Shown here: positions 11,319 to 25,146 of the stretch, in pieces | Layout of the letters: each line of letters opens with the position of its first letter | How positions within the stretch are numbered: the first letter of the stretch is position 1 | Source: Deltaproteobacteria bacterium | Lineage (GTDB): Bacteria; Desulfobacterota; Binatia; UBA12015 | NCBI GenBank assembly: GCA_016874795.1 | Contig: VGTG01000055.1 | Coordinates: 1-32,935, forward strand | Direction: 5' to 3' | Length of the DNA stretch: 32,935 nucleotides | Notes under the pieces: model-generated | What the model was told of the DNA's origin: nothing | Seen by the model: the letters and a program-made list of their open reading frames with translations, nothing else | Database searches by the model: none | Translations under genes and position numbers: made by a program

Positions 11319-12362
11319 TCAGGCGTCCTCGATGGAGGCCCCGAACCCCGGCTGCCCGGCGCGTGCGGGCGACAGCCGTACCGGGCGCGGACGACGTACC
11401 TCGCCGGCTTCCCCGGCCTCGATCGGGGCGACGTCGTTCGGAGCGTCCGGGCAGAGAAGGGCCGCGAGATCGCGAAGCTGGCGCCGTCCGACGCCGATCT
11501 CGAACATTCCGCCGAGGTAGACCGCGATGCCGGACGCCATGCAGCTCGCGATGCCGTCGAGGGCCTCGAGTACCCCGCCCATGCGCGCGGGCTTCACGTT
11601 CGCGGCCGCCGGGCGGATCGGAAGCTCCTCGAGAGCGCGCGCCTGCGTGAAGCTTGCGTCGAGGCTCAGGCGATCGGCGACCCCGGCGCACGAAGATGGC
11701 GTCGGGCCGGGGTCCTCCTGCAGGGCCTCCGGGACGAGGCGCCGCGCACGCTCGTGATCCGCGCTCGCTCCGCCGCGCTTCCAGTCGAGGACGGCGACGC
11801 GGCTCGTCGCGTCGAGCGCTGCGAACGTCGCGTCGGTCCAGCGCGGGTCGACGTCGACCTTCGCTCCGAGGCCCGGGGTCTCGCCGACCTCGTCGAGCAG
11901 GCGCGCGACAGGGTCCTCGGTCGCTTCGAACGAGACGACGTAGCGCACGGGCTGCGGCTTCGCGTCGAGGAGTGCGGCGAGAGACAGGTTTGCTTGACGG
12001 AGCGCGAGGTCGATCGCGGCGGCTTCGATCGCGGCGCGGTCGTACGGCGCGGCGAGCACGCCGGGAAGCTCGCGCGCGAGGTCGCCGAGCCGGCGCGTGC
12101 CGCGGAGCCGGCGCGTCAGCGCTCGCGCGCGCCGCGCGAAGGCGGAGTGTTCCTCCGTCGTCCAGCCGACGTGCTCGCCGGTCCCGCACGCAGTGCCTCC
12201 GTGCAGCGTCACCGACGAGGAGGGACGCGGACCTCCCGGGTACGACGGAATCGCGACGGCACTCGTCTCGACCGAGATCTCCTCGACCTCGACCCGCAGG
12301 CCGCGCAGGGCGCGAGCGAGTGCGGCTGCGGCTGCGGTCTGCGCCTCAGGCGTCGGCGGCAC
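11319..12362 (-). CDS. Enolase-superfamily protein (mandelate racemase/muconate cycloisomerase type)
   Basis: This 347-residue protein has an N-terminal capping domain with AAIEAAAIDLALRQANLSLA, the helix typical of this superfamily. The barrel carries LGAKVDVDP, VAVLDWKRGG, EALQEDPG, LSLDASF and ANVKPARMGG. The Asp, Glu and Asp of the middle three are likely magnesium ligands. The Lys in GAKVDV and in NVKPARMGG are likely acid/base residues. Such enzymes abstract a proton next to a carboxylate (dipeptide epimerase, o-succinylbenzoate synthase, racemases); I cannot pick a substrate. The GTG start at 12362 lies inside the end of the EgtD-EgtB gene (17-bp overlap), so the two are probably co-expressed. 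No strong Shine-Dalgarno is visible. The 174 bp after its stop, before the M48 gene, hold no gene I can support. Confidence 0.75.
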   Translation of the reverse strand: MPPTPEAQTAAAAALARALRGLRVEVEEISVETSAVAIPSYPGGPRPSSSVTLHGGTACGTGEHVGWTTEEHSAFARRARALTRRLRGTRRLGDLARELPGVLAAPYDRAAIEAAAIDLALRQANLSLAALLDAKPQPVRYVVSFEATEDPVARLLDEVGETPGLGAKVDVDPRWTDATFAALDATSRVAVLDWKRGGASADHERARRLVPEALQEDPGPTPSSCAGVADRLSLDASFTQARALEELPIRPAAANVKPARMGGVLEALDGIASCMASGIAVYLGGMFEIGVGRRQLRDLAALLCPDAPNDVAPIEAGEAGEVRRPRPVRLSPARAGQPGFGASIEDA

Positions 12363-14736
12363 AGCGAAGGCCGGCGAAGATCTGGCGTCGCTGCGGCAGG
12401 TCCCAGTTCCGGAACGTGTTCCGGATCGCGATCGGGCGCGTCGCCCAGGAGCCGCCGCGTAGCACCTTGTAGCCCTTCCCGAAGTGCGCCTCGGAGTACT
12501 CCCGATACGGGAATGCGCGGAAGCCGGGGTAGGGCGCGAAGTCGCTCGACGTCCACTCCCACACGCAGCCGAGCATCTGCTCGCAGCCGAAGTAGCTTCG
12601 CCCCTCGGGATGCGCGCCGATCTGCGAGGGCGCGAAGCTCCGCTGATCGAGGTTCGCCAGCGCTTCGGTCGGCGGCCCGTCGCCCCAGGGATGGAGGCGC
12701 GTCACGCCGCGCTCGAGATCGCAGGCGGCGGCCTTCTCCCACTCGAGCTCGGTGGGAAGGCGCTTGCCCGCCCACCGCGCGTAGGCGTCCGCCTCGTACC
12801 AGGAGACGTGGACGACCGCGCGACGCGGATCGAGCGGCTCGCGACGCCCGAAAGCGACTTCGTCCCACCCGCCGTCGCGGGTGCGCCGCCACTGCGCGGG
12901 ATGCGCGACGCGCGCTTCGCGGAGCCAGTCCCAGCCGGCGTCGCACCAGAGCTCGCGCCGCCGATAGCCGCCGTCGTCGACGAACGTCGCGTACTCCGCG
13001 TTGCTCACCGGGGCGAAGTCGATCCGGAACGCCGGCAGGTCGACGTCGTGTCGCGGCCTCTCGTTGTCGTACGCGACGCGCCGCTCGTCGGTGCCGATCG
13101 GAAACGAGCCGGCGGGAACCGTCGCCATGCCTGCCGGCGGGCGCCGCTCCGCGACGCGCGGCGGGCGGCGGAGGTGCGGCTCGTAGCGGAGCCCGTCGAT
13201 GAGCTGGAGCGTCTGCAGGATCGTCTCGCCGTGCTGCGCCTCGTGCTCCGCGAGCATCGCGTAGAGGTAGCCCTCGTGAACGAGCGGATCGTCGCCGTCC
13301 AGCGCGACGCGACCGAGGCTCGCTCGCGTGTGGCGGCGGACGCGCGCCATCTCGTCGAGGCACGTCGCGCGGTCGGGAAGGGCGAGGCGGACGCGGACGG
13401 AGCGCGGATGCGCCATCGCGTCGTACAGATGATCCCGCCGCGGCCGGTCGGGATCGACATGCGCCGGAGGTGCGACGCGGCACACCCACTGCTCCTCGAA
13501 GTTCGCGATGTGCGCGAGGTCCCACACGATCGGGCTCTGCAGCGGATCGTGCTGCCGCGTGAGCTGGTCGTCTTCGAGCGAGTACACGAGAGCGCACGTC
13601 CGCGCGCGCGCATCGTCGAGGTCCCGCAGAAGCACGCGGCGCAGCTCCCCCTCTCCATCGGTCGTGTCGTCGCGCCGCGCGAGGACCAGGGCGAACCCTT
13701 CGTCCGTCCCGACGAACGACTCGATGGGAACGAGCCCGTGCCGCGCGAGCCGCTCGGCGACCTCGTCGACCTGGAACTTCCGGCTGATCTCCGTCTGCAC
13801 CATCTCGCCCGCCGCGATACGGAAGTCCTGCGCGAAGCCGAAAAGGCGGATCGTGGTCTCGCGCCGGAAGCGCGCGAAGATCTCGATCCGCTCCCGGTCG
13901 ATGCTGTAGTAGGCGACGTGCTCGATCTGCTCGAGGTCGAGACCGGTCCCGAGCTCGCGGTTCATGCGCGCGAAGAGGTTTCGCGTGAAGTCGGCGCTCA
14001 CTCCGGCCCCGTCGTTGTACGCGGCCTCGAGCGTCGCGATGTCCTTGACGAGGTCGAAGCCGAGAAGGAAGTGGTCGCCGGCCGGGAGGCCCGCCGCGAT
14101 CCGCGCGAGGAACGCCTCGAGCTCGGGCTCGTCGAGGTTGCCGATCGTGCTGCCGAGGAAAGCGAGGGTGAGCGGCGAGAACGCCCGTAGGTGCGTCATC
14201 GCCTGCTCGTACGAGCCGACGATCCCGCGTACGTCGAGCGCCGCATACTCGCGCGCGAGCGTCGCGCACGACTGCGTTACCACCTCGGGGCAGATGTCGA
14301 CGGCGACGTATGCCGGTCGGTCCCCGCCGGAGCACGCGGCCGCCCAGGCGTCGAGGAGGTGGCGGGTCTTCGTCGACGTGCCGGATCCGAGCTCGAGCAG
14401 GTTCGTCGGGCCGGTGAGCGCGCGGACGTCGGCGGCGTGCTTCCGGAGCAGAGCCGCTTCCGCGTCCGTCAAGTAGTACTCGGGCTGGAGCGTGATCCGG
14501 TCGAACAGCTCCGAGCCCCGCTCGTCGTAGAGGTAGCGGCAGGAGAGTCGTCGCGGCGTCGAGGAGAGCCCGAGCGCGATCGACTGAGCGAAGGCCCAGC
14601 GCGCCTGCTCCGGATCGGCAAGCCGGAACGAGTCGACCGTCGCGACGTCGAGGACCACTCCGTCGTTCGGTCGAGCCGCTTCGGAAACGTCGCGGGACGC
14701 GCTCTTCGCACGCGCGGTCCCCGCTCGGGCGCTCAT
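12346..14736 (-). CDS. EgtD-EgtB fusion: histidine trimethylase + ergothioneine sulfoxide synthase
   Basis: One 796-residue polypeptide carries two ergothioneine enzymes. Residues ~25-355 are an EgtD-type SAM methyltransferase: CRYLYDERGSELFDRI, PEYYLTDAEAALL, SAM loop LLELGSGTSTKTR and AYNDGAGVSADFTRNLFARMN, converting histidine to hercynine. Residues ~365-520 are a DinB-like domain with QHDPLQSPIVWDLAHIANFE (His409) and HEAQH (His498, His502), the predicted non-haem iron triad. Residues ~535-796 are an FGE-sulfatase domain (VSWYEADAYARWAGKRLPTE, GCVWEWTSSDF, VLRGGSW), completing the EgtB oxygenase that joins sulfur to hercynine. The order matches fungal Egt1. Bacterial EgtB and EgtD are usually separate. 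No egtA, egtC or egtE is in the window, so the sulfur donor (cysteine or gamma-glutamylcysteine) is unknown. It is divergent from ligA and overlaps the downstream enolase-like gene. Confidence 0.93.
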   Translation of the reverse strand: MSARAGTARAKSASRDVSEAARPNDGVVLDVATVDSFRLADPEQARWAFAQSIALGLSSTPRRLSCRYLYDERGSELFDRITLQPEYYLTDAEAALLRKHAADVRALTGPTNLLELGSGTSTKTRHLLDAWAAACSGGDRPAYVAVDICPEVVTQSCATLAREYAALDVRGIVGSYEQAMTHLRAFSPLTLAFLGSTIGNLDEPELEAFLARIAAGLPAGDHFLLGFDLVKDIATLEAAYNDGAGVSADFTRNLFARMNRELGTGLDLEQIEHVAYYSIDRERIEIFARFRRETTIRLFGFAQDFRIAAGEMVQTEISRKFQVDEVAERLARHGLVPIESFVGTDEGFALVLARRDDTTDGEGELRRVLLRDLDDARARTCALVYSLEDDQLTRQHDPLQSPIVWDLAHIANFEEQWVCRVAPPAHVDPDRPRRDHLYDAMAHPRSVRVRLALPDRATCLDEMARVRRHTRASLGRVALDGDDPLVHEGYLYAMLAEHEAQHGETILQTLQLIDGLRYEPHLRRPPRVAERRPPAGMATVPAGSFPIGTDERRVAYDNERPRHDVDLPAFRIDFAPVSNAEYATFVDDGGYRRRELWCDAGWDWLREARVAHPAQWRRTRDGGWDEVAFGRREPLDPRRAVVHVSWYEADAYARWAGKRLPTELEWEKAAACDLERGVTRLHPWGDGPPTEALANLDQRSFAPSQIGAHPEGRSYFGCEQMLGCVWEWTSSDFAPYPGFRAFPYREYSEAHFGKGYKVLRGGSWATRPIAIRNTFRNWDLPQRRQIFAGLRCAADA

Positions 14737-18242: not shown

Positions 18243-19877
18243 TCAGGACCGCGGCGAGGCCAAGAGCGGATCGAACAGGACGCCGGGGTTCAGGATCCCG
18301 CGCGGATCGAGCGCAGCCTTCGCGGCGCGGAGCGCGCGCGCGAAGCCGTCGGGACGCTGGCGGTCGTACCACGGTCGGTGATCGCGGCCGACCGCGTGGT
18401 GGTGCGTGATCGTGCCGCCGAAGCGGAGCAGCGCCTCCGAAGCGGCCTCCTTGATCTCGCCCCACTGGGCGAGCTGCGAGCCGGCGCGTCCCGGGCCGAG
18501 GACCGTGTAGTAGGGCGCAGGTCCGTCGGGGTAGACGTGCGTGAACCGGCACGTGACCGAGCCGGCGCCGCACACGCGCTTCAGTGCATCCTGCACCGCG
18601 GCGGTGATGCCCGCGTGCAGCTCCGGGAAGCGGTCCCACGTCGTCGCGGTCTCGAACGTCTCGCTCACCATGCCGATCGCGGTGAGCGCGTCGCGCACGT
18701 ACGGGCCGTCGAGGAAGGCCTTCCGCCACGCGCCAACGGCGCCTTCACGTGCGCCCGCCGTGTCGGCGCGCGTCTCGCCCGCGCCTTCGGGGGCGTCTCC
18801 GCCGTGGTCGCGGCAGATCTCGAGCGCGCGCCGCATGCGCGATGCAGGATCGTGGTCCGCGGACTCGAAGCCGAGGACGAGCACCGACTCCGCACCGGAG
18901 CCCGCGCCCGAGTTCGCCGCTTCTCCCGCGTCGAGGAGACGGCAGTTGCTCGGATGGAGACCGCTCTGGGAGAGAGCGCGCACGCACTCTGCCGCTGCGA
19001 GGAAGTCCGCGAAGCGCACGGACGCGGAGGCGCGACGATCCGGCCGGTCCTGCAGGCGCATCCACGCTTCCGTGACGATGCCGAGCGTCCCCTCGGAGCC
19101 GATGAAGAGACGATCGGGGCTCGGTCCCGCTCCCGATCCCGGAAGCCGGCGCGACTCGATCGTCCCCGTCGGCGTCACGACGCGGAGCGACTCCACGAAC
19201 TCGTCGATGTGTGTGTAGAGCGTCGCGAAGTGCCCGCCCGAGCGCGTCGCGATCCAGCCGCCGAGCGTGCTGAGCTCGAACGACTGCGGGAAGTGGCGCA
19301 GCGTGAGCCCGTGCGTCCGGAGCTGGTCCTCGAGAGACGGCCCGAGCACGCCGGCCTGGATCCGCGCGGCCCGCGAGGTTCGGTCGATCTCGAGAACGCG
19401 GTCGAGCCGGCCGAGGTCGATCGAGACGACGGGGCGAGAATCGCTCTCGGGCGCCTCGATGCCGCCGACGACGCTCGAGCCGCCGCCGTACGGGATCGCG
19501 ATGAGGTTCGCGCCGTCGCACCACTCGAGCACCGAGACCACCTCCGCCTCGTCGCGCGGGAAAGCGACGACGTCGGGCGGATGCGAGAAGTCGCGGTCGA
19601 GCGCGCGCACGACGTCGCGGAACGACTTCCCGTAGGTGTGGCCGGCACGGGTCTCCGCTTCGGTCGAGCAGCTCGCGGCGAGAGAGGCGGGCGGCTGGAC
19701 GCGTGGCGCGCGGAGCGCGATCTCGTCGATGGAGGGCGGCGTGCGCGGCGCGCCGAGACCTTTGCCGAAGCGCGCCGCGAGCGCTTCCGCGAGCTTCTTC
19801 ACCTGGTCCGGGGTCGGACCCTGTCCCTCCCAGCCCCAGCCCCAGAATTTTCGCCTCGCCGCCGATCCGGTGCTCAT
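18243..19877 (-). CDS. FAD-binding oxidase, alkyldihydroxyacetonephosphate-synthase-like
   Basis: This 544-residue flavoprotein of the VAO/FAD_binding_4 class resembles alkylglycerone-phosphate synthase, which swaps the acyl chain of acyl-DHAP for a fatty alcohol and so creates the ether bond of ether lipids. Features are an N-terminal FWGWGWEGQ motif, the FAD pyrophosphate loop PYGGGSSVVGG (129-139), LSTLGGWIATRSGGHFATLY, FIGSEGTLGIVTEAWMRLQ and the histidine motif THHHAVGRDHRPWY (His492-494) typical of AGPS. GAGAAG lies 5 bp before the ATG. The related lactate/glycolate oxidases lack the HHH motif in this context, so AGPS-like is favoured, but substrate proof is absent. It is divergent from the PTS-IIA gene. 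Confidence 0.85.
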   Translation of the reverse strand: MSTGSAARRKFWGWGWEGQGPTPDQVKKLAEALAARFGKGLGAPRTPPSIDEIALRAPRVQPPASLAASCSTEAETRAGHTYGKSFRDVVRALDRDFSHPPDVVAFPRDEAEVVSVLEWCDGANLIAIPYGGGSSVVGGIEAPESDSRPVVSIDLGRLDRVLEIDRTSRAARIQAGVLGPSLEDQLRTHGLTLRHFPQSFELSTLGGWIATRSGGHFATLYTHIDEFVESLRVVTPTGTIESRRLPGSGAGPSPDRLFIGSEGTLGIVTEAWMRLQDRPDRRASASVRFADFLAAAECVRALSQSGLHPSNCRLLDAGEAANSGAGSGAESVLVLGFESADHDPASRMRRALEICRDHGGDAPEGAGETRADTAGAREGAVGAWRKAFLDGPYVRDALTAIGMVSETFETATTWDRFPELHAGITAAVQDALKRVCGAGSVTCRFTHVYPDGPAPYYTVLGPGRAGSQLAQWGEIKEAASEALLRFGGTITHHHAVGRDHRPWYDRQRPDGFARALRAAKAALDPRGILNPGVLFDPLLASPRS

Positions 19878-19965: not shown

Positions 19966-20796
19966 ATGGAGCTGACGAAGCACGTACCGAAGCGAGCGAT
20001 CCGGCCCACCCTCGTCGCGACCGGCAAGGTCGACGTCCTGCGCGAGCTCGTCGACGCTCTGCTCACCGGCGAGGAGGAGGAGCTGCGCGTCCCCGTCCTG
20101 GAGCAAGTCGTGAGCCGCGAGTCGCTCGAATCGACGGCGCTCGGCCACGGCATCGCGCTGCCGCACGCGCGCGTGCGCGGCCTGGACGACCTCGTCTGCG
20201 CGATCGGCGTCAGCAAGAAGGGCATCGACTTCCGCGCCGTCGACCAGGCGAAGGTGCACATCGTCGTCTTGATGCTCTATCCGCCGAGCAAGCAGAGCGT
20301 CTACCTGAACTTCGTCGCCGGCGTCGTCCGGGCGCTGCACAGGCCGGAGCGCGCGAAGGCGGTCCGCGATGCGGGCGACGCGGCGGGGATCCTGTCGGTC
20401 TTCGAGGAGGCGGCGCACGAGACGCATCACGCCGAGCGCGCGGCGGTCGGCGAGAAGGCGGGGGTCGAAAAGCTCGAGGCGGACGGGATCGCGGGGACGG
20501 AGCTCTTCCTTCTGGCTCGGCTCGAGCTCTACCGCGACATGATGGACGGCTCCGCGCGCGGCAAGGCGGAGATCGAGCGGCGCGTCGCCGACATCCGCTC
20601 GCTCGTGAGCAAGCGCGTTCTCGCGCACTACGATCGGCTGTGCCGCCGCGGCGGCGCCGCTCTCGTGACCGTCGAGGGCGGCATCTGCCAGGGCTGCCTC
20701 GTCAAGCTGCCGTCGCAGCTCGCGCAGAAGATCCGCAAGGAGACGGACACCGTCGCCACCTGCGGCCACTGCAACCGCTTCTTGTATCCGTTGTAA
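19966..20796 (+). CDS. PTS EIIA type-2 domain fused to a C4 zinc ribbon
   Basis: This is a 276-residue fusion. Residues ~10-150 form a PtsN/fructose-type EIIA domain; ESTALGHGIALPHARV carries the phospho-accepting His67. Residues ~150-220 are charged helix (probably coiled coil). The C-terminus is a zinc ribbon: GGICQGCLVKLPSQ and TCGHCNRFLYP with Cys241, 244, 266 and 269, like the C4-type ribbon (zf-RING_7) of CdsZ-like proteins. No EIIB/EIIC or other sugar-PTS gene is near, so a regulatory PTS role is more likely than transport. The zinc ribbon may bind nucleic acid or protein. A small inverted repeat (TTCTCT/AGAGAA, 19942-19957) sits just upstream of the start. The stop codon abuts an 82-bp palindrome. 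Confidence 0.88.
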   Translation: MELTKHVPKRAIRPTLVATGKVDVLRELVDALLTGEEEELRVPVLEQVVSRESLESTALGHGIALPHARVRGLDDLVCAIGVSKKGIDFRAVDQAKVHIVVLMLYPPSKQSVYLNFVAGVVRALHRPERAKAVRDAGDAAGILSVFEEAAHETHHAERAAVGEKAGVEKLEADGIAGTELFLLARLELYRDMMDGSARGKAEIERRVADIRSLVSKRVLAHYDRLCRRGGAALVTVEGGICQGCLVKLPSQLAQKIRKETDTVATCGHCNRFLYPL

Positions 20797-20878
20797 GGGG
20801 TCCGGTTCGTTAGGGCGCATCTGCACCCAGGCTCGTCCGGCAGCCTGGGTGCAGATGCGCCCTAACGAACCGGACCCC
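20797..20878. repeat. 82-bp perfect palindrome (37-bp arms, 8-nt loop)
   Basis: The arms 20797-20833 and 20842-20878 are perfectly complementary, and the loop is CGTCCGGC. It begins at the base after the TAA of the PTS-IIA gene and ends one base before the stop codon of the convergent CFA methyltransferase gene. Neither side carries a T-tract, so it is not a standard intrinsic terminator, although the very stable hairpin could stop or protect transcripts from both sides. Each arm holds its own sub-palindrome (GGGCGCATCTGCACCC type). Perfect arms of this length suggest a recently acquired or conversion-maintained repeat. Confidence 0.9.
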
Positions 20879-20879
20879 C

Positions 20880-21803
20880 TCAGCTGGCGCGGCGGAGGGG
20901 GGTGCCCTCGAAGGGGTGGTAGATCTCCTCGCGGGTCGTGGGGACGACCGCGGCCTTCGGATCCGCGCTCGCGACCAGCACCTGGTGCAGGTTGATCGAG
21001 TTCTGCTCGAAGTTGACCGACGACGAGTGCAGGTAGAGGAGCCACGTCCGGTACTTCCGCTCGCCGACGAGCGCGATCGCGTCGCGCTCGCGCGCCTTCA
21101 AGCGGAGCGCCCAGTGCATGCACGTGCGCGCGTAGTGCGCGCGCAGGCTCTCCACGTCGAGGATCTCGAAGCGCTGCTCTTCCATCGCCTCGGTGATGTG
21201 GCTCACGTGCGTCAGCTCGCCGTTCGGGAAGACGTTCTCGATCAGGAAGTCCCACTGCGGCGTCCGCTTCCAGTGACGATGGCGCGTGATCCCGTGGTTC
21301 AAGAAGAGGCCGCCCGGCTTCAGGAGACCGTGCACCTCGGAGAAGAAGGCCGGGTAGTTCGCGGTGCCGACGTGCTCGATGATGCCGATCGCCGAGACCT
21401 TGTCGAACGGGCCCTCGCCGACGAGGTCGCGGTAGTCGCGATGCTCGACGCGGCAGACGTCCTGCAGCCGCTCGCGCGCGATCCACTCGTTCGCGTACGC
21501 AACCTGCTGCGAGGACAGTGTCACGCCCCGCGCGCACACGCCGTAGTGCTTCGCCGCCCAGATCGCGAGGCTGCCCCACCCGCAGCCGATGTCGAGGAAC
21601 GTCTCTCCCGGGTGGAGACGAAGCTTCCGGCAAACGAGATCGAGCTTGTCCGCCTGCGCTTCCTCGAGCGATCCCTCGGGATCGCGATAGTACGCGCACG
21701 TGTAGACCATCAGCGGGTCGAGGAAGAGCTGGTAGAACTCGTTGGAGAGGTCGTAGTGGTGCTCGATCGCGCTTCGGTCGAGCGTCCGACGGTCCTGCAT
21801 CAT
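20880..21803 (-). CDS. Cyclopropane-fatty-acid-synthase-type methyltransferase lacking the N-terminal domain
   Basis: This 307-residue SAM methyltransferase adds a carbon to unsaturated acyl chains of membrane phospholipids. It begins directly at the catalytic domain (SAIEHHYDLSNEFYQLFLDP) and has SAM motif FLDIGCGWGSLAIWAAKHYG, GIIEHVG, LLKPGGLFLNHGI and FPNGELTHVSHI. Cys36 (YTCAYY), Glu143, His170, Ile172 and Tyr224 align by eye with the E. coli Cfa bicarbonate-site residues Cys139, Glu239, His266, Ile268 and Tyr317, as I recall them. E. coli Cfa has about 110 more N-terminal residues; here that part is a separate gene (22961-23311). The start is ATG 21803, preceded by GGAGGTGA. It is last in a three-gene operon, 20 bp after the GGR-like gene. 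The product could be a cyclopropane or a methylene/methyl branch. Confidence 0.92.
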   Translation of the reverse strand: MMQDRRTLDRSAIEHHYDLSNEFYQLFLDPLMVYTCAYYRDPEGSLEEAQADKLDLVCRKLRLHPGETFLDIGCGWGSLAIWAAKHYGVCARGVTLSSQQVAYANEWIARERLQDVCRVEHRDYRDLVGEGPFDKVSAIGIIEHVGTANYPAFFSEVHGLLKPGGLFLNHGITRHRHWKRTPQWDFLIENVFPNGELTHVSHITEAMEEQRFEILDVESLRAHYARTCMHWALRLKARERDAIALVGERKYRTWLLYLHSSSVNFEQNSINLHQVLVASADPKAAVVPTTREEIYHPFEGTPLRRAS

Positions 21804-21823
21804 GGCTTCACCTCCCGCCGCCC

Positions 21824-22957
21824 TCAGCCCATGCCGAAGGCGCCTTCGAAGATCATCCGCCGGCGCAGGACGGGCGTCCGGCAGATGGTACGTGCGACGT
21901 TCTCGGTGACCCATCGCGGCGCGAGATCGACGAGCCGGCCGAGCAGGCCAGGCTCGCCCGTTCCGTAGAGATCCATGAGCGTCTCGGCGTAGCGCGCGGC
22001 GGCGCGCGCGTCTCTCGCGAGGACGGCTTCGGCGGCGGCGCGCGCGCTCTGCACCGCGGGACCGATGCCTTCGCCGCTCACGCCGCGCGCGAGACCGGCG
22101 GCGTCGCCGACGAGGAAGAAGCCGTCGCCGGAAACGCGCCGCGGACGCGTCACGTGGATCGCGTAGGCGTGCCCGCGGAACGGCTCGAGCGCGAGATCCG
22201 CGGGGAGACGTCCGTCCGCGCGCAGCCGCTCGACCATCGCGTCGCAGCGCCGGTGCAGGTCGTTCCCGCCGCCGTCGCCCATGCAGCCGATGCCGAGGTT
22301 CAGGAAATCACCCTTCGTGAAGAACCAGCCGTAGCCGCGGAAGTCGGGCTCGGCGAAGAGCTCGGGCGTGCCGTGTCGCGCGGTGAGCTCGCGGAGGCGC
22401 TCCGTGCCGAGCCGCGTCTCGCTCTCTCGCGCGACCACGACCGCTTCCTCCTGTGACACCTCGCCGAAGGCGCGCGCGACCGGGCAGTGGTGTCCGCCCG
22501 CGCCGATCACGACGGCCGCTTCGAGCGTCGCCTCGCCGGCCTGGACGACGGTCTTCGTCCCCTGCCGCACGATCGCCTGCACGCGCGTTCCCTCGCGGAT
22601 CACGGCACCCGCGGCCTCGGCGCGGCGCAGCAGATGGTCGTCGAACTCCTTCCGGATGATTCCGTAGCTGACGGTGCGCGGCCAGCGCGTCTCGTGCACC
22701 TCGCCGTCGACCTCGAGCGTCGCCTCCTGGAACGGCTGGATCGTGCACGGGTAGTCCGCGGGATCGATCTCCAGAGCGCGCCAGACGGTCGGCGTCACCC
22801 ACCCGGCGCAGAGCTTGACGCGCGGAAAGCGCGCGGCGTCGAGCACCAGCACGCGCGCTCCGTCGCGAGCGAGGCTCCACGCGGCGGTCGAGCCGCCCGG
22901 GCCGCCGCCGACGACGATCGCGTCCCAGGAGCTCGGGCTGTCGCTCGTTCCGGACAC
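21824..22957 (-). CDS. Geranylgeranyl-reductase-family FAD-dependent oxidoreductase
   Basis: This 377-residue flavoprotein has the N-terminal dinucleotide fold VVGGGPGGSTAAWSLA (GGGPGG at 17-22), a conserved LCAGWVTP, and the second FAD motif FFLVGDAAGLARGVSGEGIGPAVQSA. That last motif is typical of the GGR/PHBH-like branch. GGR enzymes reduce isolated carbon-carbon double bonds in isoprenoid chains and lipids. Position gives a clue: it lies between the N-domain and the methyltransferase domain of a split CFA synthase, with gaps of 3 and 20 bp. A role in reducing or otherwise modifying the methylated acyl chain is plausible but inferred. The GTG start follows TGAGGG of the upstream gene. A halogenase or hydroxylase role is less likely, but the fold is shared. 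Confidence 0.87.
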   Translation of the reverse strand: MSGTSDSPSSWDAIVVGGGPGGSTAAWSLARDGARVLVLDAARFPRVKLCAGWVTPTVWRALEIDPADYPCTIQPFQEATLEVDGEVHETRWPRTVSYGIIRKEFDDHLLRRAEAAGAVIREGTRVQAIVRQGTKTVVQAGEATLEAAVVIGAGGHHCPVARAFGEVSQEEAVVVARESETRLGTERLRELTARHGTPELFAEPDFRGYGWFFTKGDFLNLGIGCMGDGGGNDLHRRCDAMVERLRADGRLPADLALEPFRGHAYAIHVTRPRRVSGDGFFLVGDAAGLARGVSGEGIGPAVQSARAAAEAVLARDARAAARYAETLMDLYGTGEPGLLGRLVDLAPRWVTENVARTICRTPVLRRRMIFEGAFGMG

Positions 22958-22960
22958 CCC

Positions 22961-23311
22961 TCAGACCTGCCGCAGCTCCCGCCAGATCGCGAGCTTGTCG
23001 CGCCAGCGGAGCGTCACGTCCTCGAGCTGGTTCGCGATGCGCAGGCACGCGAACAGATCGCCTTCGACGTCGACGCGGTTGTCGGCGAAGGCCTCGGCCA
23101 TCGCCTTCGTGTTCTGCGTCGCGAAGGCCTGGCGGAACGTGTCGCGATCGCGGATGACGATCGTGAACGAGCCGTCGGGTGCACCGACCGCTCCCTCGCT
23201 GCCGTCCCAGAGGCGGTAGCGGATCCCCGGACGAACCGGTCCGAAGATGCGCTCGAGCACCGCCGCAGCCGCGTCCACGCTGCCGTCCACTCGGTTCCCT
23301 GGAGACTCCAT
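22961..23311 (-). CDS. Stand-alone CFA-synthase N-terminal-domain protein
   Basis: This 116-residue protein has [28 protein letters not shown] and [19 protein letters not shown]. That pattern (R-L-W-D-G, an I/V-strand, then A-x-x-x-D/G-x-x-D-V-E-G-D-L) is the lipid-binding N-terminal domain of many CFA synthases, which the methyltransferase gene of this operon lacks. It probably complements the methyltransferase in trans. The ATG at 23311 has GGAG about 11 bp upstream; the open frame extends a further 38 codons upstream but without family similarity. It is first in the operon and divergent from ettA across 158 bp. The SCP2 fold was considered, but the V-E-G-D-L motif favours CFA. Confidence 0.75.
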
Positions 23312-23458
23312 CAGGCGTCTTTCTCCATCGAGCGGCGACCGCAGGCCGCCGCTCTCTACGACCGCCGTTTGGGGCGCGACGCCGGTCTGGTACACAAACA
23401 TTCTACCGCACCTCGAAGGGCCCATTCAAACGTTCGGCCGGCGAGCGGCAACGGCGGC

Positions 23459-23463
23459 AGGAG
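23459..23463 (+). promoter_or_regulatory. Ribosome binding site that sets the ettA TTG start
   Basis: AGGAG lies 6 bp before a TTG at 23470, and the protein from there aligns with EttA from its first residues ([20 protein letters not shown]). The frame is open a further 97 codons upstream, without similarity. This decides a rare TTG start. Confidence 0.75.
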
Positions 23464-23469
23464 AAGCGA

Positions 23470-25146
<1,677 letters not shown>

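Follow-up and report, generated by a model that had tools for sequence, protein, structure and literature searches.

Fatty acids with a 10-methyl branch serve as lipid markers for certain sulfate reducers and actinobacteria. The actinobacterial systems, bfaAB or tmsAB, pair a methylase with a flavin reductase, and in several species the genes of BfaA and BfaB share 4 bp (Machida 2017, PMC5660069). A BfaA-B fusion raised conversion (PMC7791843), in line with a benefit of closeness between methylase and reductase. Another arrangement, tmpBA, was hypothesized to be an operon for 10-methyl-palmitate, composed of a methylase resembling cyclopropane fatty acid (CFA) synthases and a putative reductase resembling geranylgeranyl reductases (GGRs) (Blitzblau 2021, PMC7791843). 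Four of the five tmpBA operons tried, from Desulfobacter postgatei, Desulfobacula toluolica, Marinobacter hydrocarbonoclasticus and Thiohalospira halophila, yielded 10-methylene-palmitate, the product of TmpB, in E. coli; TmpA is described as resembling anaerobic archaeal GGRs, and the non-actinobacterial reductase is without demonstrated activity in that work (PMC7791843). Here, we describe a three-gene operon in a stretch of 32,935 nucleotides (hereafter, the window) from a Deltaproteobacteria bacterium of the class Binatia (assembly GCA_016874795.1, contig VGTG01000055.1), in which a CFA-type methyltransferase is divided between two genes, with the gene of a GGR-family flavoprotein between them:

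Positions 23311-22961, minus strand: first gene, 116 amino acids, a free-standing CFA-type N-terminal (lipid-binding) domain protein (ND).
Positions 22957-21824, minus strand: second gene, 377 amino acids, GTG start, a GGR-family flavin adenine dinucleotide (FAD) reductase, between ND and MT.
Positions 21803-20880, minus strand: third gene, 307 amino acids, a CFA-type S-adenosylmethionine (SAM) methyltransferase without N-domain (MT).

The first-pass annotation of the window had described a split CFA synthase with a GGR-type gene between its halves, and both the coordinates and the family models bear this out, as the genes run head to tail with intergenic gaps of 3 and 20 bp. As in tmpBA, a CFA-type methyltransferase gene stands beside a same-strand gene for a GGR-like flavoprotein, and the two-step chemistry proposed is the same; however, tmpBA consists of two genes, with an undivided TmpB upstream of TmpA (PMC7791843), whereas in the window ND and MT are separate and the GGR gene lies between them, which is why we regard the trio as a variant and not as a strict tmpBA member. 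Moreover, the window GGR falls in one clade with Desulfobacteraceae GGRs and those of gammaproteobacterial metagenome-assembled genomes (MAGs), whereas its MT belongs to another lineage than their MTs. The likeness to bfaAB lies in the pairing of a methylase with a flavin reductase and in the MT itself, which is near the BfaB homologues and shares a threonine with them. Nevertheless, BfaA homologues are FAD_binding_4 proteins of the vanillyl-alcohol oxidase (VAO) type, unrelated to GGRs, and BfaB homologues are unsplit; a phmmer search with the BfaA homologue of Nocardia, recognized as such because it has an FAD_binding_4 domain and adjoins a CFA gene, found none of the window proteins at E 1e-3. 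With the archaeal SaGGR (3atq) and TaGGR (3oz2) the flavoprotein has the fold and a Y-x-W-x-F motif in common, but it stands in its own bacterial clade. Finally, the catalytic domain, the bicarbonate ligands and the N-domain fold are those of E. coli Cfa and Pseudomonas CfaB, but in the window the domains are encoded by two genes and Thr replaces Ser beside the bicarbonate-site Cys.

We propose that the operon probably makes mid-chain methyl-branched (10-methyl-type) membrane acyl chains, by methylation to a branched alkene followed by reduction by the GGR. ND and MT would form a two-chain CFA-type methyltransferase that adds the SAM methyl group to a cis-unsaturated phospholipid acyl chain; proton loss instead of cyclopropane closure would then give a branched alkene (a methylene, or a methyl beside a shifted double bond), and the GGR-family flavoprotein would reduce its C=C bond to a methyl branch. 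The branched C=C bond resembles the methyl-bearing double bonds that GGRs reduce in isoprenoid lipids. In addition, the position of the reductase gene between the methyltransferase halves suggests co-translated subunits of one complex, which could hold ND and MT together in this natural split. Since tmpBA is described in PMC7791843, the methylase-then-GGR chemistry put forward by the first-pass annotation is a published hypothesis, and its idea of a new methyl-branching route stands in part: the MT has the Thr of the linked MTs and lies near BfaB, but the GGR route was already in print. What is new is the split architecture, its distribution and the pattern of reductase partners. Among the matches listed from open-licence full texts, supplements aside, none dealt with a split CFA and a GGR gene or with the Ser/Thr position described below, and the words residue, serine, threonine, catalytic and motif are all absent from the main text of PMC7791843.

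The MT matches PF02353 at 309.8 bits (cut-off 27), over positions 4-273 of the 273 of the profile. In E. coli Cfa the bicarbonate ligands are Glu239, His266 and Tyr317 (PMC11387697), and Glu143, His170 and Tyr224 of the window MT align with them, confirming what had been read by eye before. Across 17 split MTs, Glu and Tyr are kept in all 17 and His in 16. The positions of Cys139 and Ile268 of E. coli Cfa, which we take to be part of the bicarbonate site, are also kept in the window MT.

Conservation of the trio across genomes had been named as a test of the proposal, and 18 distinct loci proved to have the order ND-GGR-MT. Of these, 16 belong to the window's class, with 11 in its own family (the window included) and 5 in a second family; a Rokubacteria MAG (L054) and a Tectomicrobia MAG (L055) account for the other two. 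ND, GGR and MT occur together in 15 of the 18 (including L035, the MT of which runs off the contig), and contig ends interrupt the other three, with L043 and L047 without ND and L046 without MT; L053, letter for letter the same contig as L038, was left out of the counts. As the trio recurs in other genomes, it is not a chance arrangement, and a frameshift or assembly error as the origin of the split was rejected, since a whole gene lies between the halves in the 18 loci. In 9 of the 15 complete split loci, the ND stop and an in-frame start of the GGR gene share 4 bp, and the pairwise distances of ND, GGR and MT correlate across 15 loci (r 0.80-0.85), partly through shared ancestry.

Within the window's class, a GGR match at 1e-40 was obtained in 28 of 148 genomes, 16 with the split arrangement and 7 in which the GGR comes after an unsplit CFA gene. 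The phylum sample gave a GGR match at 1e-50 in 29 of 395 genomes, and the 26 phylum genomes beyond those counted in the class hold 17 cases of an MT followed by a GGR and none of the split type. Among 80 named loci, 33 exceed 200 bits on a custom GGR model, and 30 of these adjoin an MT, as against none of the 47 that score 200 bits or less. GGR-CFA pairs occur in MAGs named Pseudomonadota, Desulfobacteraceae, Acidobacteria, Nitrospirae, Planctomycetaceae, KSB1, Anaerolineae, Rokubacteria and Tectomicrobia, a spread that would widen the possible sources of methyl-branched lipids; a GGR search of plasmids at 1e-20 returned zero matches.

We then compared the phylogenies of the two partners. In a 93-row GGR tree, the CFA-linked GGRs form one clade (Shimodaira-Hasegawa-like approximate likelihood ratio test, SH-aLRT, 100) of 54 rows, namely 34 of unsplit MT-GGR pairs, 16 of the split type and 4 without a found MT, and this clade comprises three subclades, one of which is the split type (support 98). 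For those four GGRs (L051, L059, L077 and L083), tblastn with six MTs found none in the nearby stretch; the L059 GGR lies 178 bases from a contig end. The MT tree places one GGR clade against several METHYLTRANSFERASES, as the linked MTs scatter over several CFA lineages: the split type, a large unsplit group, a group from Desulfobacteraceae, KSB1 and Anaerolineae near E. coli Cfa, and Rhodospirillales sequences among alphaproteobacterial CFAs. Approximately unbiased (AU) tests rejected a single clade both for the 50 linked MTs (62 rows, p 2.9e-5) and for the 33 unsplit linked MTs (p 1.3e-8), the groups being those set by gene adjacency, and an earlier tree having been viewed before the tests. 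The NCBIfam models agree with this: CfaB scored best on those split MTs that were scanned (from the window, L054 and L055), L071 matched E. coli Cfa best, and L064, L074 and L079 matched CPFASynBruc best. Overall, because one reductase clade keeps company with changing CFA partners, we infer that a shared reaction is the best explanation. Moreover, the split MTs fall together with BfaB homologues of actinobacteria and with a Ser-bearing CFA of Acidovorax (SH-aLRT 89 with 22 rows and 99 with 25 rows), so that, among the kinds whose product is known, the nearest one forms 10-methylene chains.

When columns common to the linked MTs were sought, Thr35 of the window MT was found to align with Ser138 of E. 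coli Cfa, beside Cys139. In the discovery set, all 50 linked MTs have Thr, and 10 of 12 unlinked rows have Ser; one unlinked Thr row, from Nocardia farcinica, adjoins a VAO-type flavoprotein (PF01565), which is the bfaAB arrangement. New loci were drawn from the PF02353 places of 198 phylum genomes (77 places, 73 of them read as 74 loci, one place twice; one of the 73, the second CFA of the window genome, had been part of the discovery set; of the remaining places, the window, G016:C11 and G020:C11 also came from the discovery set, and the partial G304:C60 was left out). There, the GGR-linked rows have Thr in 9 of 9 cases (8 distinct places), and the unlinked rows divide into 57 with Ser, 8 with Thr and 2 unreadable. 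Six plasmid records, of which five were new, carry an MT beside a BfaA homologue (the Nocardia one already mentioned, Prescottella, Tsukamurella, Nonomuraea and two of Variovorax), and each of these MTs has Thr. Taken together in a 140-row set, Thr is present in 64 of 64 reductase-linked MTs (58 GGR, 6 BfaA-type), and this is the best-separating column of the alignment (64/64 vs 9/76), the next one reaching 53/63 vs 16/76. The 140 rows do not include the duplicates L266 and L267, the broken or partial L223 (twice) and L241, the distant second hits L246_4133 and L165_4837, or pieces under 230 amino acids (two each of L268, L274 and L276); L003 and L004, which have Ser, and L066, which has Thr and a Met in place of the Cys, were left out of the discovery and 140-row counts and of the AU test.

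Ten solved relatives with listed alignments were also read at this position. Ser is present in 7qos, 5z9o, 6bqc, CmaA2 (1kpi), CmaA1 (1kp9), 1l1e, 1tpy and MmaA4 (2fk7), and Thr in MmaA1 (8raq) and UmaA (7l9u). MmaA1 is reported to convert a double bond to an allylic methyl branch (PMC5660069), so its Thr fits a branched product. Tentatively, and with somewhat less than even confidence, we suggest that replacing one Ser by Thr, next to the Cys of the bicarbonate site, may make CFA-type enzymes yield a methyl-branched alkene instead of closing the ring. The change would have arisen several times, the enzymes then pairing with a GGR or a VAO-type reductase, and the suggestion gains weight from the Thr of MmaA1 and UmaA. 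The position would offer a single-mutation handle on the choice between cyclopropane and methyl-alkene products.

Two further methyltransferases were noted alongside this comparison. One, of the Thr type (L265:2037-2885), groups with Variovorax BfaB homologues (SH-aLRT 100); no GGR or BfaA homologue lies beside it, and to one side its closest long frames run on the other strand. The other is the window genome's second CFA-type methyltransferase (L267, G000:C7:4400-9500), which has Ser, lies within a 792-amino-acid open frame and groups with the CFA of an Acinetobacter cluster of FAD oxidoreductase, DUF1365, CFA and DUF1295.

Several observations weigh against the proposed methylation and reduction, or against Thr as their mark. 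TmpA was inactive in E. coli and yeast, perhaps for lack of a carrier or because of oxygen (PMC7791843), and kinship with tmpBA was judged here via sampled MAG relatives, in place of the TmpA and TmpB proteins tested in print. Thr is not exclusive to reductase-linked MTs, as 9 of the 76 unlinked MTs in the 140-row set have it (the other 67 have Ser), and broken unlinked Thr copies exist in L223 and L274, outside that count. Among the eight unlinked Thr genomes of the 198-genome set, four (G020, G206, G240 and G277) hold a related GGR elsewhere, and four (G168, G225, G263 and G327) are not among the GGR matches of the phylum sample. Kinship further reduces the weight of the counts: the state changes 10 times on the tree and leaves 6 independent pairs, in about four of which the residue follows linkage, never the reverse (sign test, p 0.125). 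With so few pairs the test is unable to attain significance, and the association of Thr with linkage is not statistically proven. Neither does Ser mean cyclopropane, since the hydroxymycolate synthase MmaA4 (2fk7) has it, and UmaA is a weak witness because its methyl-branched product is disputed: 10-methyl-stearate was claimed in vitro, yet no new fatty acid appeared in E. coli (PMC5660069). In addition, a GGR occurs without an MT in the 1.5 kb seen in 5 of the 28 class genomes, and without an MT within 1.5 kb in 9 of the 26 further phylum genomes. No electron donor for the flavoprotein is in sight: in 16 split-type neighbourhoods, the neighbours of which were not annotated singly, no gene family beyond the trio and its reading-frame shadows is common to more than 8. 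An opposite-strand, ATPase-like frame, named by eye (window 23167-25143), is present in 8 of the 16; a conserved fourth gene such as a ferredoxin was rejected, as the trio alone is common to nearly all of them. Finally, the best curated model for the MT is CfaB, a cyclopropane synthase (NF040703, 332.4 bits, far under its cut-off of 650; NF008686 gives 254 vs 400), with the absent N-domain depressing the score on both models.

This last result would suit an ordinary two-piece cyclopropane synthase standing beside a GGR that reduces something else, such as a menaquinone tail, a polyprenyl lipid or a carotenoid; the flavoprotein also scores for the MenJ and BchP-ChlP models, all under cut-off, and some GGRs of the wider kind stand away from any MT. 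We nevertheless consider this explanation unlikely, given that one GGR clade is paired with several CFA lineages, that the MT has Thr in place of the Ser of solved cyclopropane synthases, and that no other gene family passes 8 of 16 trio neighbourhoods. The lack of an N-domain lowers the score of the window MT on these models, but the catalytic part of a Desulfobacteraceae methyltransferase adjoining a GGR (L071:5169-5951) reaches 448 bits by itself on NF008686 (cut-off 400), and because it passes this E. coli cyclopropane synthase cut-off, automatic annotation may misname the product.

A grouping of the flavoprotein with halogenases had been named as an outcome that would refute the proposal, but the family model and the fold ranking both place it nearer to GGRs, so that neither this test nor that of conservation went against the proposal. 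The flavoprotein scores 171.7 bits against TIGR02032, the 'geranylgeranyl reductase family' (cut-off 158.8), the relatives L064, L071, L079 and L051 falling below that cut-off at 140-157 bits. Its model (predicted local distance difference test, pLDDT, 92.1) has TaGGR 3oz2 and SaGGR entries (3atq) as top fold matches, ahead of halogenases, and the top six matches are all GGRs, at about 20% identity for SaGGR and TaGGR. The substrate-site residues of SaGGR are Tyr215, Trp217 and Phe219 (PMC9385802); Tyr209, Trp211 and Phe213 of the window protein align with this Y-x-W-x-F motif (the chain index of SaGGR in the alignment being the published number plus 1). Isoprenoids are thought to be positioned in GGR through methyl groups that plain unsaturated acyl chains do not have (PMC9385802), and a methylated acyl chain would supply a methyl group for such positioning.

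The same fold is common to flavin hydroxylases and halogenases, and the flavoprotein might therefore oxidise the methylated chain (by desaturation, by hydroxylation or as a step towards furan fatty acids), as do the enzymes that act after UfaM, a CFA relative that makes 11-methyl-12-trans 18:1 (PMC10876521). In a plain phmmer search the first PDB row was the halogenase 5buk, and in a profile search three halogenases and a FixC outscore SaGGR. However, TaGGR ranks first in that profile search, the Y-x-W-x-F motif is kept, and GGRs lead in both TIGR02032 and the fold search, on which grounds a halogenase or hydroxylase was rejected as the identity of the flavoprotein and an oxidative role appears quite improbable.

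ND scores 25.8 bits against DUF7884 (PF25371), slightly below the cut-off of 27, and matches the N-terminal part of the CfaB model at E 7e-6; a phmmer search of PDB sequences gave a cyclin as its sole row (E 0.49). The AlphaFold2 model (mean pLDDT 86.8) has CFA synthase N-domains as its best VIA-align matches, 7qos with Z 8.7 (80 residues, 2.8 Å) and 5z9o with Z 8.4 (87 residues, 2.5 Å), the best Foldseek E-value being a modest 5.4e-3. Moreover, a hidden Markov model built from 14 free-standing NDs also detects the N-domain within many unsplit CFA genes. Structures of sterol carrier protein 2 (SCP2) rank next, with Z of about 7, and the predicted likeness may be a clue to how CFA N-domains hold lipids. 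Given this likeness of the ND model to both SCP2 lipid carriers and CFA N-domains, the free ND could conceivably present the same acyl chain first to the MT and then to the reductase, within one three-protein complex, although we hold this to be doubtful. In E. coli CFAS (CFA synthase), activity dropped significantly once the domains were made as separate proteins (PMC11387697), and the split operon is a natural counterpart of that laboratory split. The substrate could also be an isoprenoid or another unsaturated chain, methylated and then saturated, as GGRs natively act on isoprenoids (PMC9385802) and sequence cannot tell the substrate, but this is very unlikely in view of the retained ND, a domain suggested to serve membrane-lipid substrates (PMC11387697, section 10), of the grouping of the MT with BfaB, and of the action of the TmpB and BfaB proteins tested in print on acyl chains (PMC7791843).

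Beyond the trio, two features of the flanking region were considered:

Positions 20797..20878, no strand: a palindrome of 82 bp with perfect arms of 37 bp, between the operon end and a convergent gene.
Positions 18243-19877: an FAD-linked oxidase (PF01565 and PF02913), near the trio, beyond a convergent gene.

The palindrome belongs to a dispersed palindromic repeat family, with at least 40 full-length copies at 79-100% identity in the window genome (6.27 Mb in 360 contigs), as 40 of 79 first-look candidates were scored, and the copy after the trio may act as a bidirectional terminator. The oxidase was rejected as a BfaA, since the search with the BfaA homologue misses it and it sits past the convergent gene. 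Two fusion proteins were also noted in the window. That of 19966-20796, 276 amino acids long, joins a phosphotransferase system EIIA type 2 domain (PF00359) to a C4 zinc ribbon (PF02591), and that of 12346-14736, a single protein of 796 amino acids, combines a histidine-specific methyltransferase domain (PF10017) with DinB_2 and FGE-sulfatase domains, presumably resembling the EgtD and EgtB halves of ergothioneine synthesis in fused form.

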